Shown here one piece after another: positions 12,910 through 32,395 of a stretch of 64,000 bases of DNA. The notes under the pieces are model-generated. The model had not been told where the DNA came from and ran no database searches. It saw nothing but the letters and a program-made list of their open reading frames with translations. This DNA comes from Nitrospirota bacterium (GTDB lineage: Bacteria; Nitrospirota; Nitrospiria; Nitrospirales; UBA8639). The position numbers and the translations under genes were made by a program. The DNA lies in the NCBI GenBank assembly GCA_003695915.1, contig RFGF01000017.1:62001-126000 (forward strand), written 5' to 3'. Positions within the stretch are counted from its first letter, which is position 1. Every line of letters starts with the position of its first letter.

Positions 12910-13845
12910 TTACGCGATTGATGATCGTGGGATAAGCTGATCGGTGCGAGCCTGCTGCTCGGCGTGATAGGAACTCCGAACGAGCGGACCCGATTCCACA
13001 TGCCTGAAACCGAGGGCCAGTCCCTCATCCTTCAACTGCTGGAATTCGTTTGGATGATAGAATCGTGCCACGGGCGCATGATCTCGCGTGGGAGCAAGGT
13101 ATTGTCCGATGGTGAGGATGTCGCACCCCACGTCGCGGAGATCGATCATGACTTGACGAAGCTCATCCGGAGATTCCCCCAACCCGACAATCACGCCGGA
13201 TTTGGTCAATGCTCCGAGCGCTTTAGCCCGTGTAAGCACGGTCAACGATCGAAGATACTTGCCCTGCGGTCGCATCAAGGGAAACAACCGCGGGACGGTT
13301 TCGATATTATGATTGAGAATATCCGGCCGCTCCTGCATGACCGTCGCAAGTGCCGATTCGTTCCCTTGAAAGTCAGGAATAAGGACTTCAATCGTACAAG
13401 TCGGCGTAACGGAGCGAATAGCACGAATGGTTGCGGCAAAGATCGAAGCGCCACCGTCCGGCAGTTCGTCTCGATTCACAGACGTGATCACGGCATGACG
13501 GAGCCCCAGGGCTTGCACCGCTTTCGCCACACGAAGCGGCTCATCCCGATCAAGTCCCTGTGGACGCCCCGTGGTCACGGCACAATAATGACAGCGACGC
13601 GTACAGATATCGCCCAGGATCATGAACGTGGCCGTCCGCTGATTCCAGCATTCCCATACATTGGGGCATCTGGCTTCCTCGCACACCGTATGCAACCCCA
13701 GGTCATCCATGATCTGCCGGATCTCCCGGTAGTCCGGTCCTTGCCGAACCCGTACTTTGAACCATGGAGGAAGACGCCTGCGGGCCTCTGCATGAGTTTG
13801 TGCTTCAGCAGTTTGTCTCAATTCCTCGATGGGGATAAAGGTCAT
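12910..13845 (-). CDS. lipA: Lipoyl synthase
   Basis: A radical-SAM enzyme that inserts two sulphurs into octanoyl groups to make lipoyl cofactors. The auxiliary cluster cysteines are Cys55, Cys60 and Cys66 in CEEARCPNVWEC. The SAM cluster is CTRRCHYC (Cys81, 85, 88). The C-terminal RSSYHA Ser ligand is present. The length of 311 residues is normal. It is the last gene of the acyl-CoA operon and overlaps the GTPase gene by four bases. That placement fits, because the E2 subunit encoded upstream in the operon needs a lipoyl group. No lipB or lplA is in the window. Confidence 0.95.
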   Translation of the reverse strand: MTFIPIEELRQTAEAQTHAEARRRLPPWFKVRVRQGPDYREIRQIMDDLGLHTVCEEARCPNVWECWNQRTATFMILGDICTRRCHYCAVTTGRPQGLDRDEPLRVAKAVQALGLRHAVITSVNRDELPDGGASIFAATIRAIRSVTPTCTIEVLIPDFQGNESALATVMQERPDILNHNIETVPRLFPLMRPQGKYLRSLTVLTRAKALGALTKSGVIVGLGESPDELRQVMIDLRDVGCDILTIGQYLAPTRDHAPVARFYHPNEFQQLKDEGLALGFRHVESGPLVRSSYHAEQQARTDQLIPRSSIA

Positions 13846-14648
13846 GTCGTCGCTCCGTCGCCTCCCGCTGAAACATCGCTTGGAACCGGTGACGCCGAAG
13901 ACTGGGAGGCCAGCGAGAGGATGGCTTCTTTGAGCTCTGGGATCCCCTCACCCTTCACCGCCACCGTCGCCAAGACAGGCTGTATCCAGCGCCGCAAGGT
14001 GGCGATCGTCGCCTGGGCCTCAGGATGATCGGCTTTATTGACCACCACGAGATGAGCCACTTCGAATAACCCGGCTTTCATGGCTTGAATTTCATCACCC
14101 AATCCTGGTGCCACGATGACGACCACGACATCTGCCAGTGTAGTAATTTCACCGACTTCTTGTCCGACTCCGACCGTTTCGACCAATATGAGATCATAGC
14201 CGGCTGCGCTCAACACGGTGATCGCATGACACGTCGATCGAGCGAGCCCCCCAGCGTGGCCGCGAGTCGCCATGCTCCGTATATAAACTCCTTCATCCAA
14301 GGCATGACGTTGCATGCGAACCCGATCGCCAAGCAAAGCCCCGCCGGTCAGGGGGCTGCTAATATCGACCGCCAGCACCCCGACTCGCTTTCCATCCACA
14401 CGGAAGGCATCGATCAGTCGATCGACGACGGTGCTTTTTCCGACACCGGGATATCCGGTAATCCCCACGACGACCCCGTGATTCGTTTCGCCTTTGAAAT
14501 GCTGAGCGAGTGTTGATACCGCCTCGGGGTCGGATTCCATGAAAGAAATGGCTCGCGAAATCGCCCGGAGTTCACCGGCTCGAATGCGAGCGACGAGCGC
14601 CGCCATGCGTTCCGAGCTAGCCTTGCTCGATGGGCTCGAACCAAACAT
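13842..14648 (-). CDS. MeaB/ArgK-type GTPase, B12-mutase chaperone
   Basis: A 268-residue G3E-family GTPase. The P-loop GYPGVGKST is at residues 65-73, with a metal-binding Asp in DISSP, the switch region ETVGVGQ and the base-recognition motif NKAD. MeaB-type proteins load adenosylcobalamin onto acyl-CoA mutases and protect them from inactivation. The operon encodes both mutase subunits, so the partner is almost surely the mutase at 17723/16409. It overlaps the upstream DUF35 gene by 32 bases and lipA by four. In IcmF enzymes this GTPase is fused to the mutase, while here it is separate. Confidence 0.9.
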   Translation of the reverse strand: MFGSSPSSKASSERMAALVARIRAGELRAISRAISFMESDPEAVSTLAQHFKGETNHGVVVGITGYPGVGKSTVVDRLIDAFRVDGKRVGVLAVDISSPLTGGALLGDRVRMQRHALDEGVYIRSMATRGHAGGLARSTCHAITVLSAAGYDLILVETVGVGQEVGEITTLADVVVVIVAPGLGDEIQAMKAGLFEVAHLVVVNKADHPEAQATIATLRRWIQPVLATVAVKGEGIPELKEAILSLASQSSASPVPSDVSAGGDGATT

Positions 14649-15111
14649 CGGTCACCGTGTAGGTTGGCTCTTTGGCGAATCGGGGACGAACAGGCATCCC
14701 GATGCGAACCTGTTCGGGATCGACCCCTTTCAATCGAGAGAGAAACAATGTATTCACTCCCTCGAATTCGACCAAGATCAAGACATAGGGTGTTTCTTTC
14801 AGAAAGCGTTCGCTTCCGTAATAGCAGACGGTAAACGTATGAATCCGGGCTGTGGTCGGGAGTCGCTCCCAGGTCGTGGCATGGCCGCACTCCATACAAT
14901 GCCTTCGCGGCGTGGCATAGAAGTATCGGCATTGCGTGCATCGCGAGCCGAGCAACTCCCCCTTGCTCAATCCTAGAAAAAACGGGGTGTCTTGGGCATA
15001 ACTGTGCCGATACTCGATTTCATAGCGATCACGAAGAATCAAGGGATCCATACTCAAAATCTCGACCCGATGCTGTGCGAGAGGATCAGAGCCTTCTGGT
15101 GATTCATTCAT
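14617..15111 (-). CDS. DUF35 zinc-ribbon/OB-fold protein
   Basis: A 164-residue two-part protein. A rubredoxin-like zinc ribbon, CTQCRYF...CMECG, is followed by an OB fold with the stretch HTFTVCYYGSERFLKETPYV. DUF35 proteins pair with thiolase-like enzymes and shape acyl-CoA binding, as in archaeal thiolase/HMG-CoA synthase complexes and steroid side-chain aldolases. Its gene starts 14 bases after the stop of the thiolase-like gene, in keeping with a complex. About 30 extra N-terminal residues precede the usual family start, and an internal ATG at 15051 is an alternative. The ribosome site is weak in both cases. Confidence 0.85.
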   Translation of the reverse strand: MNESPEGSDPLAQHRVEILSMDPLILRDRYEIEYRHSYAQDTPFFLGLSKGELLGSRCTQCRYFYATPRRHCMECGHATTWERLPTTARIHTFTVCYYGSERFLKETPYVLILVEFEGVNTLFLSRLKGVDPEQVRIGMPVRPRFAKEPTYTVTDVWFEPIEQG

Positions 15112-15125
15112 CGTTAAGCCATGAG

Positions 15126-16412
15126 TTACGTCACGGCTTCAAGAATCGTCACGGTAATATACGTTCCAGTCCCGGCATGACTGTGAATCAGCCCTCGTCG
15201 AGGCCGCGAAACCTGCAACATTCCGTTCCCCAAATGTTTTTCGATTGCCCCCTGCAACTGCCACAACGCGAAGACTGCCTGCATGAGCCCGGTCGCGCCG
15301 ACGGGATGGCCACAGGCCAACAGTCCACCCGACGGATTGACCGGCAATCGACCTTGCTGTGGGAGCGACAACCCGTAATCGATCCCCGGCATGAAGGGAA
15401 TGCCGGATTCCACGAACGATCCCCCTTCGCCGTATTTGCACAGGCCGAGGTCCTCGTAAGTCTGTATTTCCGATGACGTATACGCATCGTGCAACTCGAT
15501 AAAACTTAATTCTTCCCGAGGATCCTGAATTCCCGCCATGTGATACGCCAGTTTGGCGGCCATACGCCCGCCACGGAACGAATGCACACCCGGATAGCGC
15601 AGCGTAGCGTAATCGCTCTCTTGCTCATGCGGCAAGAGGAGCACTTTTCCATGTGGGCGATCCGCCATGCGCATCGTATCCGACCCCGACCCCACGCCCG
15701 TGATGTGTACAGGCCGATCACAAACGCGCGAGGCGATGCGCTCTGAGGCGAGAATACAGACGGCCGCGCCATCCGACATCGTGCAGATATCTTCCATGGT
15801 CAGCGGCGTGGCCACCATGGGAGCCTGACGGACCTGCTCGATGGTCAGTCGTTTCGCCTTTTGCGCATAGGGATTGTAAAGCGCATTGATGTGGTTCTTG
15901 ACCGAGACCATCGCCATCTGCTCGACCGTGGTCCCGAATTCATACATATGGCGCTGGACCATCATGGCATAATAGCCGGTGTAAAAGCCCCCGATGGGAA
16001 AATCGAAGTTGGTATCGGAAGCCAGCGCGATGAATTCGTTTCCCTTCCACGTGCTCACTCGCGACATGGTTTCGAACCCAAAGGCCACACAACACTCCAT
16101 ACGGCCGGAGGCGATGGCTTCCCAGGCCGATTGCAAACACAGACCGCCTGTCGCTCCGCCGCCCTCGATCCGTTTCGACGGTTTGGGACAGAGGCCCAGA
16201 TAATCCTGCACCATGCTGGCGGCTTTCAATTGGCGTGTAAAGTGATCAGAAAAATACGAGCCGACCGCGCCGTCGATCATGTCAGGGGTCAAGGCCGGGA
16301 TATCGCGCAGGGCATAGTCATAGGCCTCTTTGACCATCAAGCGAAAATCTTTCTCCGGATGCGCTTTGGCAAACTTGGTCACCCCTCCGCTGATCAGATA
16401 GACAGGTCTCAT
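15126..16412 (-). CDS. Thiolase-like protein (SCP2 type), partner of DUF35
   Basis: A 428-residue thiolase-superfamily protein. The C-terminal GGLLACGHPVGATG motif carries the catalytic His, and ELHDAYTSSEIQ matches the NEAF-type loop. At the nucleophile region, EGGGATGG lines up with the usual NaCaSG, putting Gly86 where the catalytic Cys should be. Cys92 lies six residues later and might not substitute. The last Cys-containing loop is replaced by HSHAGTGT. It may therefore be an acyl-CoA aldolase of the Ltp2 kind rather than a true thiolase; alignment by eye limits this. It overlaps the B12-subunit gene by four bases. Confidence 0.8.
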   Translation of the reverse strand: MRPVYLISGGVTKFAKAHPEKDFRLMVKEAYDYALRDIPALTPDMIDGAVGSYFSDHFTRQLKAASMVQDYLGLCPKPSKRIEGGGATGGLCLQSAWEAIASGRMECCVAFGFETMSRVSTWKGNEFIALASDTNFDFPIGGFYTGYYAMMVQRHMYEFGTTVEQMAMVSVKNHINALYNPYAQKAKRLTIEQVRQAPMVATPLTMEDICTMSDGAAVCILASERIASRVCDRPVHITGVGSGSDTMRMADRPHGKVLLLPHEQESDYATLRYPGVHSFRGGRMAAKLAYHMAGIQDPREELSFIELHDAYTSSEIQTYEDLGLCKYGEGGSFVESGIPFMPGIDYGLSLPQQGRLPVNPSGGLLACGHPVGATGLMQAVFALWQLQGAIEKHLGNGMLQVSRPRRGLIHSHAGTGTYITVTILEAVT

Positions 16413-16819
16413 TCTCGACGCAGTCCTTTGACGAACTCGACGATGGTTTGCAGCGGCGTGCCGGGCGGAAAGACGGCACGAACGCCGGCAGACAGAAGCT
16501 TGGGCACATCCTCGTCAGGAATGATGCCGCCAGCGAACACGACAATATCCTCGGCTCCGCGTTCTCTCAATAAATCCACAATACGCGGCAACAAATAATT
16601 GTGAGCGCCGGAATGAATCCCCAGCCCGATGGCCTGCACATCTTCCTGGATCGCTGTATTGACGACTTGCTCGGGTGTTTGATGGAGTCCAGTGTAAATG
16701 ACCTCCACTCCAGCATCGCGGATGGCATGGGCCACAAGTTTCACACCCCGATCATGCCCATCCAACCCCACTTTTCCGATCAACACGCGGAGCGGAGTCT
16801 GTCTCGTCGTGGCAGTCAT
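16409..16819 (-). CDS. icmB: Acyl-CoA mutase small subunit, B12-binding
   Basis: A 136-residue cobalamin-binding domain protein. The DxHxxG motif (Asp20, His22, Gly25) provides the lower cobalt ligand, and GIHSGAH and FAGGIIPDED match the nucleotide-loop binding strands. The small separate subunit is the architecture of isobutyryl-CoA mutase and 2-hydroxyisobutyryl-CoA mutase, and also of archaeal-type methylmalonyl-CoA mutase. The large subunit is encoded at 17723-19387 with one gene between. The gene symbol is by analogy with IcmA/IcmB and depends on the substrate argument given for the large subunit. Confidence 0.85.
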   Translation of the reverse strand: MTATTRQTPLRVLIGKVGLDGHDRGVKLVAHAIRDAGVEVIYTGLHQTPEQVVNTAIQEDVQAIGLGIHSGAHNYLLPRIVDLLRERGAEDIVVFAGGIIPDEDVPKLLSAGVRAVFPPGTPLQTIVEFVKGLRRE

Positions 16820-17658
16820 ACTTCCACCGAAGCCAATCTATACTTCCCGGCTTCATCCTTCCGCACATACCCCATCTGCACCTGAGGATCGTGTTCGAAT
16901 ATCAAGAGCCATCGCTCGTCGACCGCTTGCTCCAAGAGCGCCCGTTTGGTTTCCAACGTCTGTAATGGCAAGACGTCATAGCCCATGATGTACGGGAGCG
17001 GAAGATGGGCCACGGTAGGAATGAGGTCGCCGAGGAACAACGCAACCTGTCCTTCGGATTCTACTTTCACGCTTTGATGATGAGGCGTATGCCCTGGAGT
17101 TACCACCACGGAGATGCCAGGAAGCAATTCGGTCGTCCCATCCACCAATTCCCATTTCCGATGCTCGTTCAACGGGAGAATATTGTCCGGTCGGTAACTC
17201 GCTCGGGTCCGCTCGTTGGGATGCGTGGCGTCTTCGAATTCCCCACGCTGAACATAATAGATCGCTCGGGGAAACGTCGGCACGAGATGCCCATCGGCAT
17301 CCCGAGACGTAGCCCCGCCGGCATGATCAAAATGCAGATGGGTGAGGATCACCAGATCGATATCCGTGGCGTGCATACCAATGTGCGCTAACGAATCCAG
17401 AAGCGTGACGGAGTGGTCGATGGCGTAGATGCGCTGGAATTTGGCATCCCCTTTCATCCCGATGCCGGTATCGATCAGGATCCACTTATCATGGGCGTGC
17501 ACGAGCAAACACGTCAGGCTCAGCAGAATACGGTGACACTCATCGGCAGGGCAGCATTGCTCCCAAATCACACGGGGCACGATGCCGAACATGGCCCCGC
17601 CATCCAGCCGAAACCGGCCGTCGGAAACAGGGAAAATCTCAAAGGTCCCGAGCTTCAT
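16816..17658 (-). CDS. Metallo-beta-lactamase-fold hydrolase
   Basis: A 280-residue MBL-fold protein with the two-metal motif HLHFDHAGG near residues 112-120, a later His in TPGHTPHH, Asp in FLGDLI and a final His near the C terminus. The general layout is like AHL lactonases and other quorum-quenching or thioesterase-like relatives. The gene lies between the two mutase subunit genes, overlapping the small-subunit gene by four bases, so it is likely to act on a CoA-linked or lactone intermediate of the same pathway. The substrate is unknown. Confidence 0.8.
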   Translation of the reverse strand: MKLGTFEIFPVSDGRFRLDGGAMFGIVPRVIWEQCCPADECHRILLSLTCLLVHAHDKWILIDTGIGMKGDAKFQRIYAIDHSVTLLDSLAHIGMHATDIDLVILTHLHFDHAGGATSRDADGHLVPTFPRAIYYVQRGEFEDATHPNERTRASYRPDNILPLNEHRKWELVDGTTELLPGISVVVTPGHTPHHQSVKVESEGQVALFLGDLIPTVAHLPLPYIMGYDVLPLQTLETKRALLEQAVDERWLLIFEHDPQVQMGYVRKDEAGKYRLASVEV

Positions 17659-17722
17659 TACTGCGTATCCATGAGATCTTTCCGATCGCTCACCTGTTCT
17701 TCAACGCATTTCTTGTCGGTAA

Positions 17723-19387
17723 TTACAGGACGACCGGTTCCTGATAGGTCCCAAAGACTTCCTTCAAGGCGGTACAGATTTCCCCCAACGTCGCATGAGC
17801 CTTCACCGCTTGGATGATCCCGGGCATCATGTTCTCGTTGGATGCGGCACACTGCTGCAATGCATGGAGCGTCTGTGCCACCCGGGCTGGATGACGGCGA
17901 GCCCGAAACACGGCGAGGCGTTGTACTTGATTCCGCTCCACCTCTTCGCCGATGCGCAAAATGGGAATGGGCTGAGGCGCAGGGTCCCTATACGCATTGA
18001 CGCCCACCAGAATTCGTTCCTGTCGCTCGATTTCTTGTTGATAGCGTTCTGCGGCATCCAAGATTTCCCGTTGCGGGTATCCCCGTTCGATGGCCTTCAA
18101 CATCCCTCCCATGGCATCGAGCTTTCGGAAATACTCCTGAGCCGCCTCTTCCATCTGATCGGTCAACCGTTCGAGGAAATACGCCCCGCCCAAAGGGTCG
18201 ACCGTATTGGCGACTTCGCTTTCGTGAGCAATGATTTGCTGTGTCCGCAATGCCAGCGTCACGGCTTCCTGCGTCGGTAAGGCCAACGTTTCGTCCATCG
18301 AATTGGTGTGCAAGGATTGCGTCCCACCCAACACCGCCGCCAAGGCCTGAATGGTGGTCCGCACCACGTTGTTCATCGGTTGCTGCGCGGTCAGTGAACA
18401 CCCCGCAGTCTGGGCATGGAACCGAAGCTGAAGTGATCGCGGATTCTTCGGTCGATATCGCGCGGCCATCTCTCGGGCCCAAAGCCGGCGGGCCGCTCGG
18501 AATTTGGCGATCTCTTCAAAGAAATCGTTGTGGGCATTGAAGAAAAACGAAAGCTGGGGAGCAAAGGCATCCACATCCAGACCCGCCTTCACGGCTTCGT
18601 CCACATAGGTGAGGCCGTCATACAAGGTAAACGCCAATTCCTGGACCGCCGTAGAACCCGCTTCCCGAATGTGATAGCCGCTGATGCTGATCGGATGCCA
18701 TTTCGGCACGTACTGCACGCAATAGGCGATCACATCGGTGATCAGCCGCAGATGCGGCTCGGGCGGAAACAACCATTCCTTTTGCGCGATGTATTCCTTC
18801 AAAATATCGTTTTGGATCGTCCCTCCGAGCTCCGAGAACGGGATCCCACGCCGTTCAGCCACAGCGAGATACATGGCAAAAAGCACGGCAGCCGGACCAT
18901 TGATGGTCATAGACGTCGTGACCCGATCCAAAGGGATGCCGTCGAACAATCGTTCCATGTCTTCCAGGGTAGAGATAGCCACCCCACAATAGCCGACTTC
19001 ACCGCGAGCTCGCGGATCGTCCGAATCGAGCCCCATCAACGTCGGCATATCGAAGGCCACGCTGAGGCCCGTCTGACCCTGTTCCAAGAGATAGCGAAAG
19101 CGCGCGTTCGTATCTTCGGCCGTTCCGAACCCTGCAAATTGGCGCATAGTCCAAAGACGCCCGCGATACATCGTCGGATAAATACCCCGTGTATAAGGGA
19201 AAGAACCAGGTTCGCCGAGATCGCGCACGAAATCCCAGCGCTCCAGATGCGCCGGGGTATAGACCCGATCGATGGGTAATCCCGAGAGCGAGCGAAAAGA
19301 CGGTTTCCGCTCCCGCATCGCTGTATGCTCCGAGCGACGCATCGCTAGTTGAACAGCGTCATCGGATGAGCGCATGTCGTGTGTCAT
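17723..19387 (-). CDS. icmA: B12-dependent acyl-CoA mutase, large subunit (isobutyryl-CoA type)
   Basis: A 554-residue TIM-barrel mutase domain. TMRQFAGF places Phe at residue 84, SVAFDMPT places Ala at 111, and EYIAQKEW places Gln at 202. Spacing against the known enzymes is exact: Tyr89 to Arg207 in methylmalonyl-CoA mutase, and Ile90, Asp117, Gln208 in 2-hydroxyisobutyryl-CoA mutase. Phe plus Gln is the isobutyryl-CoA mutase pair. Methylmalonyl-CoA would need Arg at 202 and hydroxyisobutyryl-CoA would need Asp at 111. So isobutyryl-CoA to butyryl-CoA is most likely, with pivalyl-CoA another option. It overlaps the dehydrogenase gene by four bases and shares an operon with the B12 subunit and chaperone. 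Confidence 0.85.
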
Positions 19388-20271
19388 GACGTTTCATAAG
19401 AATAAAAGCCGCGACCGCTTTTCCGACCCAGCCATCCGGCTTCGACATATTTGCGGAGCAATGGACATGGTCGAAATTTTGGATCACCCAAATCGTGATG
19501 GAGTACGTCCAAAATCGCGAGAACCGTGTCCAGACCGATCCGATCCGCCAAGGCCAGCGGTCCCATTGGTTGATTCGTCCCATCCCGCATCGCCGTATCG
19601 ATCGCCTCGATCGATGCAAGATTCTCGTACACCGCAAAGATCGCTTCATTGATCATGGGCATGAGCATGCGATTCACCAGAAATCCCGGCGAATCCTTGC
19701 ATTCGACCGGGATTTTTTCTAATCGTTCGGCCAGCGCACGGAGCAGTGCGACGGTTTCCGAGCCGGTTCGCAGGCCGCGAACGAGTTCCACCAGACGCAT
19801 GACCGGCACGGGATTCATGAAGTGCATCCCGGCAACCAGTGCATCTCGCCCCGAAGCACTTCCCAGCTTCGTAATTGAAATAGACGAGGTATTGCTAGCC
19901 AAAATCACATTGGGCTTGCAGAGCCGCCCCAATTCACGAAAGATGCCCATTTTGATATCGACGTGTTCAGGAGCGGCTTCGATCACGAGTTGCGCATCGG
20001 TCATCGCCCCGAATGAGTGGGTCGTTTGAATTCGCCCAAAGGCCTCCTCCATTTGTTGACGGCTCAGCAGACCGTCTTGCACTTGTCGATCGAAGCCTTT
20101 CCGAATACGCGCGCGGGCTGTCTCCAATGCCCTGGGGTCGGTGTCGTACAACGCCACCTCGAACCCGGCTTTCGCGGCGACCAGAGCTATTCCCGAGCCC
20201 ATTTGGCCTCCGCCGACGATACCGATCCGTTCGAGTTCGTGGATCTGCAGAGGTGCTGACTGACTGGTCAC
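19384..20271 (-). CDS. hbd: 3-hydroxybutyryl-CoA dehydrogenase
   Basis: A 295-residue NAD-dependent dehydrogenase with the Rossmann motif [13 protein letters not shown] near residue 17 and the catalytic HFMNPVPVM His-Glu region. The C-terminal [17 protein letters not shown] helical domain is complete. It oxidises (S)-3-hydroxybutyryl-CoA to acetoacetyl-CoA, or runs in reverse. It overlaps the mutase gene by four bases and follows the thiolase gene by 86. In the proposed isobutyryl pathway it acts between enoyl-CoA hydratase and thiolase. Confidence 0.93.
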
Positions 20272-20357
20272 TGCCTCGTCCCTCCCCTACCTGAGTTCCA
20301 GCCCTGAACGATTTGCCTCGTCACAACGGAGATGCCGGACACCGATCCCGCATGCTG

Positions 20358-21548
20358 TTAGGTCAGCCGTTCAATGACCACGGCCAACGCTTCCCCGCCA
20401 CCGATACACAAGCTGGCCAGCCCCACACGCCCGCCACGCGCATCGAGAGCGTACAACAACGTCGTCAAGAGTCGAGCTCCCGTCGCCCCGATCGGATGAC
20501 CTAGCGCCACCGCCCCTCCATTCACATTGACTTTTTGCGGATCCAATCCCAGTTCTCGTTGAATGGCCAAAGCCACGGAACTGAAGGCTTCGTTGATTTC
20601 GAACAGATCGATATCGTGAAGGGACAGACCCGTCCGCTTCAAGACTGCGCGAATCGCGTCGATCGGCGCGGTCGTAAACCATTCAGGAGCCAAAGCCGCA
20701 CCGGCATAGCCGACGATCCTCGCCAGAGGGACGATCCCGCGTCGACGGGCTTCTGCTTCATCCATCAGGATCAATGCCGCAGCACCGTCATTGCATGAAG
20801 GGGAATTGCCTACCGTTAAGACGCCGTTGCTCTGGAACACCGGCGGCAAATGCGGCAACTTTTCCAAATTGACTCGATTGGGCTCTTCGTCCTCCGTGAC
20901 GATCAAGGGATCGCCTTTTTTTTGAGGAACGTCGACGGGGACGATTTCTCGCTTAAACGCACCGGACGCGATGGCCGCCCGCGCTCGACGATAACTTTCC
21001 AACGCATATGCGTCCAGTTCCTCCCGAGTGAGCTGGAACTTGGCCGCACACAGTTCGCCTCCGGTACCCATATGAAAATCGTTGTACACATCCCATAGCC
21101 CATCCTTTATCAGACTATCGACCAACTCGCCATGGCCAAGGCGGTAGCCCTGTCGGGCTTTCAGCAACAAGTACGGCGCGCCCGTCATGCTTTCCATTCC
21201 TCCAGCCACCAGAATCCGAGCTTCCCCCAGCCTGATGGCCTGCGTGGCCATGATTACGGTCATGAGGCTCGATCCACAGACTTTATTGACCGTCACGGCC
21301 CCCACTTGATGTGGGAGGCCCGCGCCGATCGCCGCTTGACGCGCAGGCGCTTGTCCTAAGCCCGCCGTCAGCACACAGCCCATATACACGTGATCCACCG
21401 CCTCACCGGGAAGTTGGATCCGACGCAGCGCTTCCGCAATGGCGAAGCTTCCCAAGCGAGTCGCGGGAAGGGGACTGAAAACCCCGTTGAAACTCCCCAT
21501 CGGCGTCCGCACGGCACTTACGATAACGGCTTGGTGTTCAGCGCTCAT
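20358..21548 (-). CDS. atoB: Acetyl-CoA acetyltransferase
   Basis: A 396-residue biosynthetic-type thiolase with all catalytic residues: Cys91 in NKVCGSS, NEAFSSVAL, His351 in GHPIGATG and Cys381 in LCIGGGEA. It interconverts acetoacetyl-CoA with two acetyl-CoA. The ATG overlaps the stop of the E2 gene (ATGA), and a much longer frame upstream is just the E2 region read in another phase. It is one of two thiolase-superfamily genes in the operon and the only one with a full active site. Confidence 0.93.
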   Translation of the reverse strand: MSAEHQAVIVSAVRTPMGSFNGVFSPLPATRLGSFAIAEALRRIQLPGEAVDHVYMGCVLTAGLGQAPARQAAIGAGLPHQVGAVTVNKVCGSSLMTVIMATQAIRLGEARILVAGGMESMTGAPYLLLKARQGYRLGHGELVDSLIKDGLWDVYNDFHMGTGGELCAAKFQLTREELDAYALESYRRARAAIASGAFKREIVPVDVPQKKGDPLIVTEDEEPNRVNLEKLPHLPPVFQSNGVLTVGNSPSCNDGAAALILMDEAEARRRGIVPLARIVGYAGAALAPEWFTTAPIDAIRAVLKRTGLSLHDIDLFEINEAFSSVALAIQRELGLDPQKVNVNGGAVALGHPIGATGARLLTTLLYALDARGGRVGLASLCIGGGEALAVVIERLT

Positions 21549-22714
21549 AGATGATGCTCCCATCGCTCGTGTTCGAGACAATCCTTGACCTTGTGCATGA
21601 AGCGATCGGCTGTCGCGCCGTCGATGACCCGATGATCGAACGACAGACTGAGGATGCCTATGGGACGAATCGCGATGGCATCGTCGAGCACCACCGCTCG
21701 CTTGCACACCGCACCCACGCCCAAAATGGCAATCTGAGGTTGGTGAATAATCGGTGTGCTGAACACGCTTCCCATCCCGCCATGATTGGTAATCGAAAAC
21801 GTGCCTCCCTGCACTTCATCCGGCTTCAATTGCTTGGTTCTGGCGCGATGGGCCAGATCCGCGATCATTTTGGCCAACGTCAGCAGCCCGTACCGATCGG
21901 CACGAGCAATCACCGGCACCAGCAATCCATCCTCGACGGCCACAGCGATCCCGATGTTGATCGCCCCTTTACAAAGAATGCCTTCATCGGTCCAGGATGA
22001 ATTGAGGATCGGATAGGCACGCAATCCTTGGACCACCGCATGCACCACGAACGGCAGGTATGTCAGATTGTGTTGGGTTCGACACGTATCCACAGCTCGA
22101 AAATCGACCTCGAAAAACGTCGTGGCATGCGCGGCTGTGCGACGGCTTTCGACCATGCGCTGGGCGATGGTCCGACGCATGGAGGTGAGCGGAATCAGTC
22201 TGTCGGCTGGTGTCTCCTGGGCCGCACGATCTCCAATCTCTCCGGATGGGGAACCAGATGCGATGCCCCGTTGCCGTTCGAGATAAGCCAAGACATCTGT
22301 TTTCGTGATTCGTCCACCGGCTCCCGTTCCTCGGATTTGGTACAGATCGACGCCATACTCTTTCGCCAATCGACGCACGGCGGGAGAGAAATGTTCTCCT
22401 TCCTTGACGGATGTTCCGGCCAGACCTTCTTGCCGGCGCTCGGTGTCTGATTGCGATCGAGTCTCGACAGGCTGCCCTCCGATTTCCAATCGCCCGAGCA
22501 CGGTGCCGACAGCAACGGTTTCGCCTTCCCGAACCAAGATCTCGCTCAACGCTCCCGACGCCGGAGCAGGGATCTCCAAGGCCACTTTGTCGGTTTCGAC
22601 TTCCAAGATCGGTTGGTCTTTTTCGACGTGCCCGTTTTGTGGGACCAGCCATTTGATGACGGTGCCTTCGGCCACGGTCTCTCCAAGCTGGGGCATGATA
22701 ATGTCGATGGCCAC
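21545..22714 (-). CDS. 2-oxoacid dehydrogenase E2, dihydrolipoamide acyltransferase
   Basis: A 389-residue E2. A single lipoyl domain carries Lys43 in ETDKVALE. A linker and a peripheral subunit-binding domain follow (FSPAVRRLAKEYGVDL...GAGGRITK), then the catalytic core ending in LSFDHRVIDGA, where His and Asp catalyse acyl transfer. GTG at 22714 has GAGGAG six bases upstream and gives the normal lipoyl start AIDIIMPQLGE. An earlier GTG at 22732 is less likely. It lies 33 bases after the E1-beta gene. Context suggests a branched-chain complex feeding isobutyryl-CoA to the mutase; pyruvate or acetoin dehydrogenase is possible. No E3 is in the window. Confidence 0.9.
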   Translation of the reverse strand: MAIDIIMPQLGETVAEGTVIKWLVPQNGHVEKDQPILEVETDKVALEIPAPASGALSEILVREGETVAVGTVLGRLEIGGQPVETRSQSDTERRQEGLAGTSVKEGEHFSPAVRRLAKEYGVDLYQIRGTGAGGRITKTDVLAYLERQRGIASGSPSGEIGDRAAQETPADRLIPLTSMRRTIAQRMVESRRTAAHATTFFEVDFRAVDTCRTQHNLTYLPFVVHAVVQGLRAYPILNSSWTDEGILCKGAINIGIAVAVEDGLLVPVIARADRYGLLTLAKMIADLAHRARTKQLKPDEVQGGTFSITNHGGMGSVFSTPIIHQPQIAILGVGAVCKRAVVLDDAIAIRPIGILSLSFDHRVIDGATADRFMHKVKDCLEHERWEHHL

Positions 22715-22765
22715 AATCCTCTCCTCGATCACGATGCCAGCCCGCAGGCTCTCTCTGTGTGCTCG

Positions 22766-23758
22766 TCAATACGCAGCCAATCCTCGGGCTGCCTCGAGCA
22801 CATCGTCGACCTTTGGAATAAAAAACGCTTCCAAAGGCGGACTGTACGGCACCGGCGTATCGGGCGCCGCCACACGGATGATCGGTCCATCCAATGCGTC
22901 AAAAGCCTGTTCGGCGATTCGAGCAGCAATTTCGGCGCCTACCCCGCCCGTTTTGGTATCCTCGTGCAATACCATCACCTTACTGGTTTTTCGTACGGAT
23001 TCCAGGATGGTATCGGTATCCATGGGCACCAGTGTCCGAAGGTCGACGACCTCCATCGCTATTCCTTCGCGTTCCAAGATTTCCGCGGCTTCCAGCGCGA
23101 CATGAACCATTGCGCCGTAGGTGATGAGCGAGAGATCCTGCCCCTCGCGCACCACTTTTGCCTGACCGATTGGGACGACGAACTCCTCCTCCGGAAGCAC
23201 TTCTTTGATTCGGCGATAGAGAAACTTGTGTTCCAAATAAATCACCGGATTGTTGTCCCGAATGGCAGCCTTGAGCAACCCTTTGGCATCGTAAGCCGTC
23301 GCTGGTGCCACGATCTTCAATCCCGGAGTATGAAAGAACCAGGCCTCGGGGCATGCCGAATGGAAGGGACCGCCATGAATCCCTCCGCCATACGGAGCAC
23401 GAATGACGATCGGCACCGCTGCGCCCCATCGATAGTGATTCTTCGCCGCCACTTCGGTAAGTTGATCGAAGGCACAGGAAATAAAGTCGGCGAATTGCAT
23501 TTCAGCTACGGGCCGCATGCCCATCATTCCCGCACCGATGGCTGCGCCAACGATAGCCGATTCCGACAACGGCGTATCCAAGACCCGCCATTCGCCATAT
23601 TTGTCCTGAAACCCTTCGGTGATTCGAAAGGCCCCGCCATACACCCCGATATCTTCACCGAGAAGGAACACCCGTGGGTCTTGACGCATCTCTTCATCCA
23701 ACGCTTGGGAAATGGCTTCGAGATACGTGATCTCCTGAGCTCCTGTCGCCGTGGTCAT
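22766..23758 (-). CDS. 2-oxoacid dehydrogenase E1, beta subunit
   Basis: A 330-residue transketolase-like subunit with LGEDIGVYGGAF near residue 33, DTPLSESAIVG, APYGGGIHGGP and VLHEDTKTGG, all typical of E1-beta of pyruvate or branched-chain 2-oxoacid complexes. It binds thiamine diphosphate together with the alpha subunit. The start is preceded by GGGAGGGG, and the ATG overlaps the stop of E1-alpha by four bases, indicating coupled translation in equal amounts. Substrate type is not fixed by motifs that I can see. Confidence 0.92.
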   Translation of the reverse strand: MTTATGAQEITYLEAISQALDEEMRQDPRVFLLGEDIGVYGGAFRITEGFQDKYGEWRVLDTPLSESAIVGAAIGAGMMGMRPVAEMQFADFISCAFDQLTEVAAKNHYRWGAAVPIVIRAPYGGGIHGGPFHSACPEAWFFHTPGLKIVAPATAYDAKGLLKAAIRDNNPVIYLEHKFLYRRIKEVLPEEEFVVPIGQAKVVREGQDLSLITYGAMVHVALEAAEILEREGIAMEVVDLRTLVPMDTDTILESVRKTSKVMVLHEDTKTGGVGAEIAARIAEQAFDALDGPIIRVAAPDTPVPYSPPLEAFFIPKVDDVLEAARGLAAY

Positions 23759-24738
23759 GCGAGCCCCTCCCTCTCTGAATCGGCATAGACGCCATCAAGT
23801 GCTTCCGGGCCTTCCGGCAACGGACTGCGTTCAGCGAATTCCAGAGCCGTGTCGATTTCCTTGATCACCCGTTGTTGAACGGCCTGAAAATCCGAGTCCG
23901 TTGCATAGCCCCATTCGCGCAAGATACGCTCGGCCTTGAGGATGGGATCTTTCTTTTTCCATTCCTCGAGCAACGCTCGAGGGACATATTTGGCAGAATC
24001 GTGCTCCGAATGACCATGCATCCGCATGGTCTTGCATTCGATAAATGTGGGTCCTTCACCGCGTCTGGCCCGCTCGATGGCCCGCTGTGCAGCCAGATAG
24101 ACAGCGCCGACATCGTTGCCGTCCACAATCTCGCTCGGCATGGCATAGGCCTTTGCCCGCTCGGCGACATCACGGATAGCCATTTGCAAATGCAGTGGGG
24201 TCGAGTACGCGTATTGATTGTTGTTGCAGAAAAAGACGACCGGAAGTTTGCGAACGGACGCGAAATTCAAGGCTTCATGGAAATCGCCCCGACTGGTTCC
24301 TCCATCGCCCGTATTCGTCACCACCACCCGGGTTTCCCCTCGTAGTTTGAACGCTAACGCCGCACCGGCCGCAACGGGAAGATTGTCGGCAAGATGACTC
24401 ACGAAGGCGATGATGCCGCGGCGGAGATCACCGAGATGCACATTGCCATCTTTGCCTTTGGTCGGCCCGGTTCTCTTGCCCAAATATTGAGCCAACACTT
24501 CGCCCGGCGTGATGCCCCGAACCAAATAGGCCCCCATGTCCCGATGATACGGTGCGATCACGTCATCGGCGTGCAATGCATACGCATACCCGACCGAGAT
24601 CGCCTCCATTCCATGGCTGGTGTAAGCGCCACCGGCAATGCGGCCTTGGCGGTAGAGCACCGTCACACGGTCTTCCAGGGCACGGGTCAGCCGGAGATAG
24701 TAATACATTTGCAGGTAGTCCGCTTTGGCGATCTTCAT
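23755..24738 (-). CDS. 2-oxoacid dehydrogenase E1, alpha subunit
   Basis: A 327-residue thiamine-diphosphate subunit. The GDGGTSRGDFHEALN...NNNQYAYS segment is the GDG-to-NN cofactor motif, and HGHSEHDSAKY is the phosphorylation-loop region. A perfect AAGGAGG stands six bases before the ATG at 24738. An upstream ATG at 24837 would overlap the ligase gene and has a poorer site. It is followed at once by E1-beta and then E2. Substrate could be pyruvate, branched-chain 2-oxoacids or acetoin; the mutase operon favours 2-oxoisovalerate. Confidence 0.92.
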   Translation of the reverse strand: MKIAKADYLQMYYYLRLTRALEDRVTVLYRQGRIAGGAYTSHGMEAISVGYAYALHADDVIAPYHRDMGAYLVRGITPGEVLAQYLGKRTGPTKGKDGNVHLGDLRRGIIAFVSHLADNLPVAAGAALAFKLRGETRVVVTNTGDGGTSRGDFHEALNFASVRKLPVVFFCNNNQYAYSTPLHLQMAIRDVAERAKAYAMPSEIVDGNDVGAVYLAAQRAIERARRGEGPTFIECKTMRMHGHSEHDSAKYVPRALLEEWKKKDPILKAERILREWGYATDSDFQAVQQRVIKEIDTALEFAERSPLPEGPEALDGVYADSEREGLA

Positions 24739-24817
24739 ACGGTCCTCCTTCGTCCCATGCAGAGAAGCCTTAGCTCCTGAGCCATTTTCAACCGCTCCTA
24801 CACCCTGCTGATCGCGT

Positions 24818-26551
24818 TCAATGATAGGTGTGTTCATGAGTTCCCTCTCGATAGTCGTCAACAAATCGACGGTTGCGATAGGCCGCCAACCGATCCGCCA
24901 GGCGTGTTTTGAGCGCCAGCCGTTTCGGTTTGCCTGTCGTGGTGTAAGGGACATCACCGCCGAATACGATTACCTTCGGACATTTGGCAAAGGGAAGAGA
25001 GCGTCGATAGAATCGGAGCAACTCCTCTTGTGACGGCGGAGTCCTGTGCTCATGCAGCACGATATAGGCGGCGATTTCTTCTCCGTAAAAGCGGTGATCG
25101 AAGGGTATGGCCATCGCGAAGCGAACTGCAGGATGCTGCCGCAGCACTTCGTCGATCTCCAGCGGGGAAATGTTGACACCACCACGAATGATCAACTCTT
25201 TCAGCCGACCGGTGATGAAAAAATACGGTCGGCCTCGCTCATCGTTGATGAACCAGCCGGCATCGCCGGACCGAAACCACCCGCCTCGAAATGCGGCCGC
25301 GTTCGCATCCGGTCGCTTGAGATACCCGGAACACACCGTTTGCCCTCGAATGCCGATCTCCCCCGGCGTGCATGGGGGCGCAGGCTGCCCCTGCTCATCT
25401 AAAATCGCCATGTCGTTACAGGGCAGCGGGGTGCCGATGGAAGGGAATTCGTAGTCCGTCAACCAACGGCGATGTTCCTCGTCGGATAACTCCACTGGGA
25501 GAAAGCAGGAATAACACGTCGTTTCGGAGAGGCCGTATCCATGCCGAATTCGGCAACGAAATCGGTCTTCGAACGTTCTGGCCGTCTCTTTCAAGAGTGG
25601 TCCTGCTCCACAAATCAGCCCGGCAAACCGCTCGGGCAACGCAGGTCGGCTCGCGGGGCTGCGCTCTAGGAGAAATTCGAGGATCGTCGGCACAACACTC
25701 ACGCAGTGCACCGCCTCTGCTTGGATGCGAGGCCAAAACGTCGTGACATGAAACTTCCGGTTCAAGACAATGCGTCCCCCGTAATACAAAGGCGTCACCA
25801 ATGTCACCACGATCCCGTTGACATGATGGAGAGGCAATACACACATCAAGCCATCGGTTGGTTGGAATCCATGCCATTCCGCAATGGCCCGCGCATCTGT
25901 CAGCAAGTTGTTGATCGTGAGGAGAACACCCTTAGGCGCGCCAGTCGTCCCAGAGGTGTAGACGATCAAGGCCTCATCCGAATCCTGACCGTCCTCGACT
26001 GCCAGCGTCACGGATCTCCTCGCTGGCCCTACCAGATCGAGCAGGCGATGCGGATCTCTCGGCAGCCCAACGACCCGAGGCCGGCGAGGAAGATCCCCGC
26101 ACAAGGCTCGCACAGCCTCGACATCCTCTTGCCAACAGACGACATAATCGGCTTCCGAATGCTCGAGAATGTATCGCTTCTGCGCATCAGACTCTTCGAT
26201 ATTGAGGGGAACGACAACTGCCCCGAGGATCCATGCGGCACAATACACCATCACCGTGTGATCATGGTTGAAGAGCAGTGTCGCGATTCGGTTACTGCGT
26301 CGAACGCCGATCTGGTCACGAAGCACGGTCAGCAGACGATCGGTGTGCAAGGCGAACTGCTCATACGTATAGGTGCGATGAATGCCCGCGGCTTCATCGT
26401 AGAAGGAGAGAAAAGGCCGACCGGCCCAGTGCGGATTGTGCATCCGCGCATCGTAGAGTTGTCCGAATGTCGAATAGGGCAGCGGATAGGGCGCACGGCT
26501 CCATTTCCGGGCTTGAAAGATAGCGTTCTCAGAACCAATGGCCGTCCTCAT
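24818..26551 (-). CDS. Acyl-CoA synthetase, AMP-forming
   Basis: A 577-residue ANL-superfamily ligase. The phosphate loop is IVYTSGTTGAPKG, HGYGLSETTCYS is the adenine-binding motif, and GDAGWF plus GRLKELIIRGG mark the hinge. A catalytic Lys lies in TGKPKRLALK near the C terminus. It activates a carboxylic acid to its CoA thioester. The acid is unknown; in this operon isobutyrate, another short branched acid or pivalate would let a free acid enter the mutase pathway. ATG at 26551 is preceded by GAGGGA. It is the second gene of the operon if the cupredoxin, 29 bases upstream, is co-transcribed. Confidence 0.88.
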   Translation of the reverse strand: MRTAIGSENAIFQARKWSRAPYPLPYSTFGQLYDARMHNPHWAGRPFLSFYDEAAGIHRTYTYEQFALHTDRLLTVLRDQIGVRRSNRIATLLFNHDHTVMVYCAAWILGAVVVPLNIEESDAQKRYILEHSEADYVVCWQEDVEAVRALCGDLPRRPRVVGLPRDPHRLLDLVGPARRSVTLAVEDGQDSDEALIVYTSGTTGAPKGVLLTINNLLTDARAIAEWHGFQPTDGLMCVLPLHHVNGIVVTLVTPLYYGGRIVLNRKFHVTTFWPRIQAEAVHCVSVVPTILEFLLERSPASRPALPERFAGLICGAGPLLKETARTFEDRFRCRIRHGYGLSETTCYSCFLPVELSDEEHRRWLTDYEFPSIGTPLPCNDMAILDEQGQPAPPCTPGEIGIRGQTVCSGYLKRPDANAAAFRGGWFRSGDAGWFINDERGRPYFFITGRLKELIIRGGVNISPLEIDEVLRQHPAVRFAMAIPFDHRFYGEEIAAYIVLHEHRTPPSQEELLRFYRRSLPFAKCPKVIVFGGDVPYTTTGKPKRLALKTRLADRLAAYRNRRFVDDYREGTHEHTYH

Positions 26552-26580
26552 CGATTCCCTCAAAGGGTTTCACAGCCAGC

Positions 26581-26979
26581 TCAGGGCCGCTGTGCCTGGA
26601 TCGTGGTCATGTGCACAGGCTCTTGCACGGTCAGCATCCCTTCCATGATCGGATGCAGTCGACATCGATAGGGATAGCGGCCGGGTGGCAAAAAATACAC
26701 GGAAAATCGCCCACCCGGCGCCAATGTTCCCGAATCAAAGGCGCATTGGCCACTTCCATCCATGCACCCGAGATGGGTGACCGTGTGAGGAGAGGCTGTT
26801 TGATTGATCCATTCGATCGGTTGACCGGTCACGACTGTGGCCTGGACGGGATAATAATACGGGGCTCCGCTGATCAACCGAATCGCATGGACAGACAGCG
26901 ACGAACCCGCGGCATTCTGAATCAGGAGTATGAATGCAGTCCCGATAAACCATGCCCATCGAAGCCTTCGTATCCTCAT
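26581..26979 (-). CDS. Exported cupredoxin (blue copper protein)
   Basis: A 132-residue protein with a signal peptide (cleavage near AAG, residues 23-25) and a plastocyanin-like fold. The type 1 copper ligands are visible: His65 in SPHTV, Cys106 in YRCRLHPIMEG, His109 and Met112. Two further cysteines at 72 and 79 (GCMDGSGQC) could form a disulfide. It probably shuttles electrons in the periplasm. GGAGGAAGAG precedes the ATG. It lies only 29 bases before the acyl-CoA synthetase gene, an unexpected neighbour for a B12-mutase operon. Confidence 0.85.
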   Translation of the reverse strand: MRIRRLRWAWFIGTAFILLIQNAAGSSLSVHAIRLISGAPYYYPVQATVVTGQPIEWINQTASPHTVTHLGCMDGSGQCAFDSGTLAPGGRFSVYFLPPGRYPYRCRLHPIMEGMLTVQEPVHMTTIQAQRP

Positions 26980-27253
26980 CGCTCTTCCTCCGTCTCTCAT
27001 CACCGAATTCGCACGAGTTCTGCTTCGCAGCCTTCACGTTGCCATCATCGGTGCTTGAGGCCCAACCCCCTTCGAGATCTCCGCGCCCCGCCGACACGCA
27101 CAGCGGTCATGCGCATCCTGCTCGAGCGATTGGCAGAAGGACGTTCACCAGCGATTCTCGATCTACAATGAACACTCGATCGTTGCGATCGAGGCTCATC
27201 ATGGCGTGACCGCTTGTTTTTGGCAACGTCCTGCTCACGATCCCTACTCCGAG

Positions 27254-27272
27254 TGATAATGTTTTGTTATCA
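27254..27272. promoter_or_regulatory. Palindromic operator-like site
   Basis: TGATAATGTTTTGTTATCA is an inverted repeat with TGATAA arms around a 7-base centre. It is the kind of site bound by dimeric regulators such as Fur-family proteins. It stands about 275 bases before the cupredoxin start and about 125 bases before the short frame at 27398, so its target is uncertain. Confidence 0.45.
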
Positions 27273-27397
27273 TCTTAAACCTTTCATCATCACGCTGCAA
27301 TGGAAACTTTTCTTCGACGGGTCCTCCTCTCGCCTAATTCGCAGAAATATTTAAAAACTATTTGTATTTATCATTCCCTCTTGCTCGGAGACCCTCC

Positions 27398-27541
27398 ATG
27401 AGCATTATGTCGTCGAGAAACCGGCATCTCTTCTATCGCGATATTCAGAAACACTCTTGCCATGGAGAGGCCTATCGGGGCGAAAGGGCATGTCATGGAT
27501 TTTGTGATGACGGACAAGACGACAAGGGCTCCATACCGTGA
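27398..27541 (+). CDS. Possible small Cys/His-rich protein
   Basis: A 47-codon frame preceded by GGAG with seven-base spacing. The middle has Cys21-His22, Cys32-His33 and Cys36 (SCHGEA, ACHGFCDDGQ). It is short and could be chance, but the AT-rich upstream sequence and the palindrome at 27254 suggest a promoter region. No homologue recognised. Confidence 0.22.
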   Translation: MSIMSSRNRHLFYRDIQKHSCHGEAYRGERACHGFCDDGQDDKGSIP

Positions 27542-27701
27542 AGCTCATACCATCGCGTTCTTCCTTCTGCACGATGGTCCTCAAGCCGCGTGGCGATGCC
27601 CCGGTCATATCTCGAAGCCGCTGATTCGGCTCGTTCCCCGGGACGCACGTCACGGCACTGATCGTGCTCGGCTGAACTCGGCCGGTCCTATAGGCTCTCG
27701 A

Positions 27702-28481
27702 TCAGCGATCCGTGAAGCGCGGAGGGCGCTTTTCGATGAACGCCAGGAGCCCCTCTTTTGCATCGCGCGTTTGCAAGAGCGTGGCAAAGAGGGAGGCCTC
27801 TTGCTCCAAGTCTTCCTCGGCGGGAGGACTGCACGGGATGCGAAGCGCCTGCATGGCGCCTCGAAGGGCGGAGCGACTTTTTCGTACGATCGACTCAGCG
27901 AGAACATGGGCGCGGGGCAGTAGTTCCGATCGGAGTTGAACGTCGCTCACCAATCCAGCAGCCATGGCTTCATCGGCCGAAAGCCGTGATCCTGTCAGAA
28001 TCATCTCCATGGCTCTCGCCGACCCCACAAGCCTGGGAAGCCGTTGGGTGCCGCCGAACCCGGGGATTATCCCCAAGTCGAGTTCCGGCAACCCGAAAAA
28101 CGCATCATGCCCTGCGATCCGAATATGACAAGCCATGGCCAATTCCAGCCCGCCTCCGACACAGGCTCCAGAAATCGCGGCGACGACGGGCTTATCGAGC
28201 GCCTCGATCCGATTGAACAATCCCTGTCCTCGCCTGGCAAAGGTGCGGCCTTGTTCGATCGTCGAAATTTGCGCGAGTTCGCGGATATCCGCCCCAGCGC
28301 AAAAATGACGACCCTGAGCCGTCAGGATGACGGCTTTGCTGGAATCATCGGTTTCGAGAAATCGGACTAGACGATCGAGTTCTTCCAGCACCGCGACGCT
28401 CAACGTATTGGCGGGTGGAGCGTTCAGCTTGATCGTCACGATCTGATCCTTGCATTCAACGAGCCACCATTGCAGTTTCAT
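27702..28481 (-). CDS. Enoyl-CoA hydratase
   Basis: A 259-residue crotonase-family enzyme. GRHFCAGADIREL forms the first oxyanion loop and ACVGGGLELAMACH the second. The catalytic Glu region PELDLGIIPGFGGTQRLPR is intact with both Glu positions. It hydrates crotonyl-CoA and similar enoyl-CoAs to 3-hydroxyacyl-CoA. AGGAG with seven-base spacing fixes the ATG. It lies 700 bases upstream of the mutase operon on the same strand and could supply the missing step before 3-hydroxybutyryl-CoA dehydrogenase. A separate promoter is likely. Confidence 0.9.
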   Translation of the reverse strand: MKLQWWLVECKDQIVTIKLNAPPANTLSVAVLEELDRLVRFLETDDSSKAVILTAQGRHFCAGADIRELAQISTIEQGRTFARRGQGLFNRIEALDKPVVAAISGACVGGGLELAMACHIRIAGHDAFFGLPELDLGIIPGFGGTQRLPRLVGSARAMEMILTGSRLSADEAMAAGLVSDVQLRSELLPRAHVLAESIVRKSRSALRGAMQALRIPCSPPAEEDLEQEASLFATLLQTRDAKEGLLAFIEKRPPRFTDR

Positions 28482-28728
28482 GTACGGCTCCTGTCCTGTT
28501 CTCAACGATCTTCTTCGTCCATGCTCGCTCGTATTGTACGTCGCATGCGAGTATAATTTGAACAAGGGCGATGGGGACACTTTGACACGCAAACGACAAC
28601 CGTCCCGCGCGACCCGATGGCCACGAGAAGGACATCGGAAAGCGGATCGTCACATGCCCCGCCCTTTTGGGCCACAGATTGCAGGGTGCTCAAGGTAGAA
28701 AAGAGAAAAACTCTTCGATCGGGAGTGT

Positions 28729-30045: not shown

Positions 30046-30089
30046 ACCGGGTCATTCAAACCGGGCCATTCGACAGAAAGGAAACGACG

Positions 30090-31484: not shown

Positions 31485-32395
31485 CCGCTTCAGGCTTGTC
31501 GTCTCTTACAGCATTTCGTAACCGTGTGCGAACCACAACCCTGGCCGTTCCTGGCGTGTTCAATGCTTTCTCTGCTCGGTTGGTGGAACGGGCAGGGTTT
31601 GAAGCGGCGTATATCTCGGGCGCAGGGATTTCCGCAGCCCGTGCCCTTCCCGATATCGGTCTGCTCACCATGACGGAAATGGCAATGGAAACGAAGCAAA
31701 TCGCTCAAGCCGTCGACATTCCTGTGTTCGTCGATGCGGACACCGGATATGGCGAGATCCATCAGGTGTATCGAGCCGTTCGGGAATTTGCCTTGGTCGG
31801 AGCAGCCGGCATTCAATTGGAAGATCAAGCGACGACCAAACGGTGCGGCCATTTGCCGGGCAAGGTCCTCATCGAGAAAGCGGCGATGTGCCGGAAAATT
31901 GCCGCTGCCGTCGAAGCGAAGCGAGACCGCGATTTCTTGGTGATTGCCAGAACCGACGCACGAGCGAACGAAGGCCTGGCCGGGGCCATCGACCGTGCCA
32001 AAGCCTATCGAGCAGCTGGGGCCGACGCCGTTTTTCCCGAAGCGTTGGAGTCAGCAGAAGAATTCGCTCAGTTCGCTGCAGCGCTTCGCGATCCGACCCT
32101 CATCCTCATCGCGAACATGACGGAATGGGGCAAGACACCGTATCTCAGCGTCAAAGACTTTGCCCAACTCGGCTATCACCTGGTCCTGTTTCCCATGACC
32201 CTCTTTCGCATGGCGGCTCGGGTCATGGAAGAGGCCCTCCAAGAGCTCGTCAGCCAAGGGACTCAGCGCAATCTTCTGGAGCGGATGCAGGCTCGGCAGA
32301 CACTCTATGAAATCTTACGATATCAGGCGTATGATGAATTCGAGAAACGGTTGCACGAAAGGCAGGTGTCCCATGAACATGAGCGTCGCGAGTAA
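31481..32395 (+). CDS. prpB: 2-methylisocitrate lyase
   Basis: A 304-residue member of the isocitrate-lyase/PEP-mutase family. The magnesium loop VDADTGYG is at residues 84-91 and the catalytic KRCGH at 120-124 with Cys122. IARTDAR and ANMTEWGKTP are also typical. It cleaves 2-methylisocitrate to pyruvate and succinate. It starts within the stop of prpD (ATGA) and overlaps prpC by 23 bases, giving a tightly coupled prpDBC unit. Confidence 0.93.
   Translation: MTASGLSSLTAFRNRVRTTTLAVPGVFNAFSARLVERAGFEAAYISGAGISAARALPDIGLLTMTEMAMETKQIAQAVDIPVFVDADTGYGEIHQVYRAVREFALVGAAGIQLEDQATTKRCGHLPGKVLIEKAAMCRKIAAAVEAKRDRDFLVIARTDARANEGLAGAIDRAKAYRAAGADAVFPEALESAEEFAQFAAALRDPTLILIANMTEWGKTPYLSVKDFAQLGYHLVLFPMTLFRMAARVMEEALQELVSQGTQRNLLERMQARQTLYEILRYQAYDEFEKRLHERQVSHEHERRE

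Follow-up and report, generated by a model that had tools for sequence, protein, structure and literature searches.

Isobutyryl-CoA mutase (ICM) is a B12-dependent acyl-CoA mutase described as the two-subunit IcmA/IcmB of Streptomyces, where it supplies polyketide building blocks (PMC2847961), and as the fused protein IcmF. In the syntrophic fermenter Syntrophothermus lipocalidus, the cluster Slip_0757-0760 encodes a mutase large and small subunit and a MeaB-like protein and is proposed to turn isobutyryl-CoA into butyryl-CoA for β-oxidation; isomerisation of isobutyrate by ICM clusters is of a known kind (PMC5017805). The 64,000-nucleotide stretch analysed here (the window; Nitrospirota bacterium, order Nitrospirales, GCA_003695915.1, contig RFGF01000017.1, positions 62,001 to 126,000) carries an operon with a mutase of two subunits, mutA and mutB, which is probably, judging by its residues and gene context, an ICM feeding valine carbon into the β-oxidation of butyryl-CoA within a branched-chain and propionyl-CoA catabolic operon. 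As in IcmA/IcmB, the B12-binding subunit is separate and a MeaB-type GTPase chaperone is present, as an IcmA-type enzyme requires. Unlike IcmF the mutase is unfused, and unlike both IcmA/IcmB and IcmF it is set in a 2-oxoacid dehydrogenase and β-oxidation operon.

The identity of the mutase turns on three positions that set the substrate. The original prediction had named Phe84, Ala111 and Gln202 in the large subunit, and the three residues lie where it placed them. In phmmer alignments F84 falls on the Tyr of human and P. shermanii methylmalonyl-CoA mutase (MCM) and on the Ile of the 2-hydroxyisobutyryl-CoA mutase (HCM) HcmA (4r3u), A111 falls on the Asp of HcmA and the Ala of MCM, and Q202, in the context KEYIA-Q-KEW, falls on the Arg of MCM and the Gln of HcmA. 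The alignment that gives F-A-Q in the Nitrospirales gives I-D-Q in HcmA, Xanthobacter Xaut_5021 and Methylibium, V-D-Q in Sinorhizobium, and Y-A-R in human and P. shermanii MCM, an Ilyobacter protein and Streptomyces plasmid proteins. Thus neither the Tyr nor the Arg of the carboxylate-binding pair of MCM occurs in mutA, which has Phe and Gln instead, and the Ile or Val and Asp of HCM are Phe and Ala. HcmA/HcmB resembles the window enzyme in its Gln at position 202, its DMPTLMG motif, its two subunits and, in Methylibium, a nearby 3-hydroxybutyryl-CoA dehydrogenase (HBD); it differs at the other two sites and forms a separate, well-supported clade in the mutase tree. On residues and tree, the identities MCM and HCM were rejected, and what stands is that the enzyme carries the letters of an ICM. 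Phe plus Gln, shared by IcmA/IcmB and IcmF, is reportedly the ICM pair (Jost et al. 2015). Judged by phmmer coordinates alone, Q202 maps close to residue 762 of IcmF, a chain of 1113 residues.

The pattern is general among relatives. F-A-Q is found in 78 of the 80 nearest mutase homologues, the nearest named ones being those of Nitrospira defluvii NOB1, Nitrospira UBC2 and Nitrospirales bacterium NPIRA03 (76-78%). A survey of 236 Nitrospirales genomes divided into 97 with a mutase and 139 without; the 97 mutase rows hold 90 F-A-Q, five Y-A-R paralogues and two truncated sequences that lack the first two sites. The Y-A-R mutases, which are of the MCM type, occur in genomes G178, G181, G060, G013 and G161, in the last two alongside an F-A-Q mutase, while mutA/mutB is the sole mutase of its kind in the window genome.

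The operon comprises 13 minus-strand genes running from 26563 to 12910 in the order acyl-CoA ligase (ACS), E1α, E1β, E2, thiolase, HBD, mutA, a metallo-β-lactamase-fold (MBL) gene, mutB, an SCP2-like gene, a DUF35 gene, MeaB and LipA (Table 1). Start and stop codons overlap as ATGA at six junctions and the gene order is retained in other Nitrospirales, which, together with F-A-Q in nearly all of the nearest homologues, argues that the operon and its residue pattern are more than chance. The E1, E2, ligase, HBD, thiolase, MeaB and lipoyl synthase genes that had been listed at the outset, and the enoyl-CoA hydratase upstream, are all present; the SCP2-like, DUF35 and MBL genes in the same interval had been overlooked. 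The true start of E1α may be internal to its reading frame, with candidates at 24837 and 24738. An MBL-fold protein between mutA and mutB is also seen in the Nitrospirales operons that were read.

In the proposed pathway, E1/E2 would decarboxylate the 2-oxoacids derived from the three branched-chain amino acids (valine, leucine, isoleucine), yielding branched acyl-CoAs; LipA and a dihydrolipoamide dehydrogenase encoded elsewhere would assist, and the ligase would admit free acids. The ICM would then take valine carbon to butyryl-CoA, which an acyl-CoA dehydrogenase, a hydratase, HBD (the operon enzyme is of the 3-hydroxybutyryl-CoA type) and thiolase would carry to acetyl-CoA, with propionyl-CoA in addition from C5 substrates; propionyl-CoA would yield pyruvate and succinate through prpC-prpD-prpB. 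All of the substrates, the direction of flow and the branched-chain role of E1/E2 are inferred, whereas the gene order, the families, the pocket letters and an acyl-CoA dehydrogenase within the operon of three relatives are observed. The window genome has at least two further E1α genes, so the operon E1 need not serve pyruvate.

The wider neighbourhood extends the pathway beyond valine. The mutase operon of N. defluvii and that of UBC2 extend further, through genes for a carboxyltransferase, a hydratase that most resembles the γ-carboxygeranoyl-CoA type, 3-hydroxy-3-methylglutaryl-CoA (HMG-CoA) lyase, MeaB, prpD, prpB, prpC and a ligase, and each is preceded by homogentisate-dioxygenase-like and fumarylacetoacetase-like genes. 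This island points to amino-acid breakdown, with leucine degraded via HMG-CoA lyase, and the trio of carboxyltransferase, hydratase and HMG-CoA lyase implies branched-chain 2-oxoacids as the feed of E1/E2. The prpD-prpB-prpC genes directly follow the operon in several relatives; in the window they lie next door on the opposite strand with a threonine ammonia-lyase, possibly a source of 2-oxobutyrate and hence of propionyl-CoA. Valine degradation usually ends with methylmalonate-semialdehyde dehydrogenase. In support of the mutase route, none of the 236 genomes has a match to it over the curated cut-off; related aldehyde dehydrogenases score below that cut-off. A module for valine alone does not hold, since the relatives' cluster also contains leucine, methylcitrate-cycle and homogentisate-type genes. 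The ICM and valine interpretation was right in kind; it was incomplete, the pathway being wider and, in the window genome, unclosed.

The unclosed step is the acyl-CoA dehydrogenase, the one enzyme reported missing from the window. A search of the whole assembly for a butyryl-CoA dehydrogenase or its kin bears this out: PF02771 (Acyl-CoA_dh_N) and PF00441 (Acyl-CoA_dh_1) both came up empty, while 10 and 9 of 14 control genomes, respectively, were positive, and a hidden acyl-CoA dehydrogenase was rejected accordingly. Without it, the route from valine to acetyl-CoA is not closed in this genome; the loss may be real or the gene may sit in an assembly gap. Absence of electron-transfer flavoprotein (ETF) was rejected as proof of a real loss, since just 16 of the 236 Nitrospirales yielded an ETF match, against 109 with an acyl-CoA dehydrogenase. 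Elsewhere in the order, acyl-CoA dehydrogenase accompanies the mutase, occurring in 91 of the 97 genomes with a mutase and 18 of the 139 without (p = 7e-39, kinship ignored, as in all co-occurrence p-values of the survey). Three relatives (G017, G020 and G185) have a short-chain enzyme of 383-384 aa exactly between HBD and mutA, which supports the proposed route. Many others have one of ~650 aa further along the cluster; in G025 it follows prpC and the ligase. The ~650-aa acyl-CoA dehydrogenases are widespread in Nitrospirales (e.g., L133:3771-5693), and ETF mostly goes with the ~385-aa type.

The ICM assignment has good support from both its sequence and its gene context; several points weigh against it. 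Neither acyl-CoA dehydrogenase nor ETF was found in the window assembly (3.7 Mb, 135 contigs, 99.2% complete). The E1 subunits best match the T. thermophilus 2-oxo acid dehydrogenase with pyruvate enzymes close behind, which gives no sharp split between branched-chain and pyruvate enzymes. A valine route accounts for neither the MBL protein nor SCP2/DUF35. The aligned set holds no assayed F-A-Q enzyme of two subunits, Streptomyces IcmA not being among the sequences compared, and Phe alone is a weak marker, as the MCM structure 5req has Phe at that site. The gap in β-oxidation would vanish if the mutase instead interconverted 2-hydroxyisobutyryl-CoA and 3-hydroxybutyryl-CoA, with HBD and thiolase finishing the route; such a pathway would suit the set of ligase, mutase, HBD and thiolase as well as a genome without acyl-CoA dehydrogenase or ETF, and HcmA is the closest solved structure. 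The Phe and Ala found where HcmA and its plasmid-borne relatives have Ile and Asp, the separate HCM clade and the acyl-CoA dehydrogenase inside this operon in three relatives make it quite improbable.

The gap in the window genome would equally suit a mutase running in reverse, from butyryl-CoA to isobutyryl-CoA as a starter for iso-fatty acids, for which the Streptomyces building-block role is a precedent (PMC2847961). This is unlikely, given that isobutyryl-CoA is already obtainable from E1/E2, that the HMG-CoA lyase, methylcitrate and homogentisate-type genes point to breakdown and that so many of the mutase-bearing relatives have an acyl-CoA dehydrogenase. As predicted, automatic annotation calls the window gene and its relatives methylmalonyl-CoA mutase; mutA exceeds the cut-off of the TIGR00641 model of that name, and MeaB and propionyl-CoA genes lie nearby. 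Conversion of propionyl-CoA to succinyl-CoA by an MCM is nevertheless highly improbable here: the carboxylate-binding Arg is Gln and the Tyr is Phe, Y-A-R paralogues exist in related genomes, and the cluster handles propionyl-CoA by the methylcitrate cycle instead.

What stands in the slot between mutB and MeaB alternates across the order: some genomes have the classical genes of leucine degradation there, others the SCP2-like gene with its partner. The SCP2-like gene is found in 26 Nitrospirales and HMG-CoA lyase in 64 (63 of them mutase-bearing); no genome has both, against 16.9 expected by chance (p ~6e-17, kinship again ignored), and the alternation is strict in 89 of 89 assessable genomes. 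On the same strand as mutA, the SCP2-like gene starts 1.2-2.5 kb after it (22 genomes with both on one contig) and HMG-CoA lyase 3.7-4.2 kb after it (58 such genomes). In the four F-A-Q genomes with neither slot gene, mutA lies less than 1.3 kb from the contig end on the slot side. On the mutA tree the slot labels need 7-8 changes, of which the well-supported branches alone force 2-3.

The SCP2-like protein has Gly86 in place of the nucleophilic Cys expected of an SCP2-type thiolase, and its EGGGATGG motif is the same in all 12 aligned orthologues, among them those of Scalindua, Myxococcota and Acidobacteriota bins at 72-76% identity. A thiolase-superfamily gene with a DUF35 gene next door is the arrangement of the steroid side-chain aldolases Ltp2-ChsH2(DUF35) and Sal-Shy, from which the window protein differs in keeping two His and having Gly for Cys. 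Its match to Ltp2 (6ok1_A) is remote (9e-14), and an AlphaFold model from 9 sequences (mean pLDDT 54.7) was too poor for use. The best PDB matches of the DUF35 protein, 9myr_B and the ChsH2 DUF35 chain 6ok1_B, were both solved with lipid-transfer (thiolase-fold) proteins. Retro-aldol cleavage is the reaction of Sal, which is homologous to Ltp2 and likewise works with a DUF35 protein (PMC11321319). This precedent, the slot exchange, the loss of Cys and the DUF35 matches tentatively suggest that, in the 26 Nitrospirales including the window genome, SCP2/DUF35 replaces the leucine carboxyltransferase, hydratase and HMG-CoA lyase, hydrated 3-methylcrotonyl-CoA (3-hydroxy-3-methylbutyryl-CoA) being cleaved to acetone and acetyl-CoA in a biotin-free manner. 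About equally likely is that the pair performs an extra step on the mutase product and that its alternation with HMG-CoA lyase reflects gene loss and lineage history. The pair stands directly after mutA-mutB or one gene later in Scalindua and the Myxococcota and Acidobacteriota bins, with no E1/E2 match in the stretch covered, as a mutase-linked step would have it; the strict either/or and the number of label changes, only two or three of them forced, speak against such a step. In Candidatus Scalindua rubra (L007), mutA-mutB-SCP2-DUF35-HBD lies beside KCE, KDD and lysine 2,3- and 5,6-aminomutase genes of lysine fermentation and prpB/prpD.

Nitrite oxidation and autotrophy are what Nitrospira and its relatives are known for. 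If the proposed function is correct, a conserved branched-chain operon gives them access to carbon from protein, and the label methylmalonyl-CoA mutase in public annotation conceals it. The either/or slot also offers a direct and cheap test of the function of a Cys-less thiolase with DUF35. The S. lipocalidus cluster shares the mutase subunits and the MeaB-like protein; the part of its description considered here makes no mention of E1/E2, HMG-CoA lyase or an SCP2/DUF35 slot (PMC5017805). No report of the Nitrospirales island or the slot exchange was found in the open-access literature, most subscription papers lying outside the search, nor any of Nitrospira with ICM, with branched-chain amino acids and methylcitrate, or with valine and isobutyryl-CoA.

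Table 1. Genes of the mutase operon and its neighbours (window positions)
Feature	Position	Strand	Remarks
AMP-forming acyl-CoA ligase (ACS), first operon gene	24818..26563	-	Pfam AMP-binding, 245 bits
2-oxoacid dehydrogenase E1α	23755..24957	-	best solved relative T. thermophilus 2-oxo acid dehydrogenase 1um9
2-oxoacid dehydrogenase E1β	22766..23758	-	best solved relative 1um9_B
E2, lipoyl-bearing acyltransferase	21545..22732	-	
Acetyl-CoA C-acetyltransferase (thiolase)	20358..21548	-	396 aa, ATG at 21548
3-hydroxybutyryl-CoA dehydrogenase (HBD)	19384..20271	-	
mutA, B12-dependent acyl-CoA mutase large subunit	17723..19387	-	554 aa; F84/A111/Q202; TIGR00641 over cut-off
Metallo-β-lactamase-fold protein (MBL), between mutA and mutB	16816..17658	-	YtnP-like, below cut-off
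mutB, B12-binding small subunit	16409..16819	-	TIGR00640 over cut-off
SCP2-thiolase-like protein	15126..16412	-	Gly86 for nucleophilic Cys; His308 and His369 kept
DUF35 protein, presumed partner of the SCP2-like protein	14617..15111	-	zinc ribbon and ChsH2-C-type OB fold; PDB matches 9myr_B, 6ok1_B
MeaB-type GTPase chaperone	13842..14648	-	TIGR00750 over cut-off
Lipoyl synthase LipA, last operon gene	12910..13845	-	TIGR00510 over cut-off
Enoyl-CoA hydratase, upstream of operon	27702..28592	-	
Glutamate dehydrogenase, divergent neighbour	28729..30045	+	
PrpD-like 2-methylcitrate dehydratase	29619..31484	+	profile match from ~30090; true start inside the reading frame
PrpB methylisocitrate lyase	31481..32395	+	TIGR02317 over cut-off
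PrpC 2-methylcitrate/citrate synthase	32307..33500	+	TIGR01800 over cut-off
Threonine ammonia-lyase	33580..34806	+	TIGR01127 over cut-off

Elsewhere in the window, a 381-aa protein encoded at 748-1893 (-) matches the RuBisCO large-chain catalytic domain (PF00016, 96.5 bits) and is possibly a RuBisCO-like protein, and a member of the Porphyromonas-type peptidyl-arginine deiminase family (PF04371, 386 bits) at 2588-3760 (-) is perhaps an agmatine deiminase. An ApbE-type flavin transferase gene (6465-7607, -) lies near the gene of an FMN-binding-domain protein (11272-11952, +), with a porin-like gene (8799-10283) between them.

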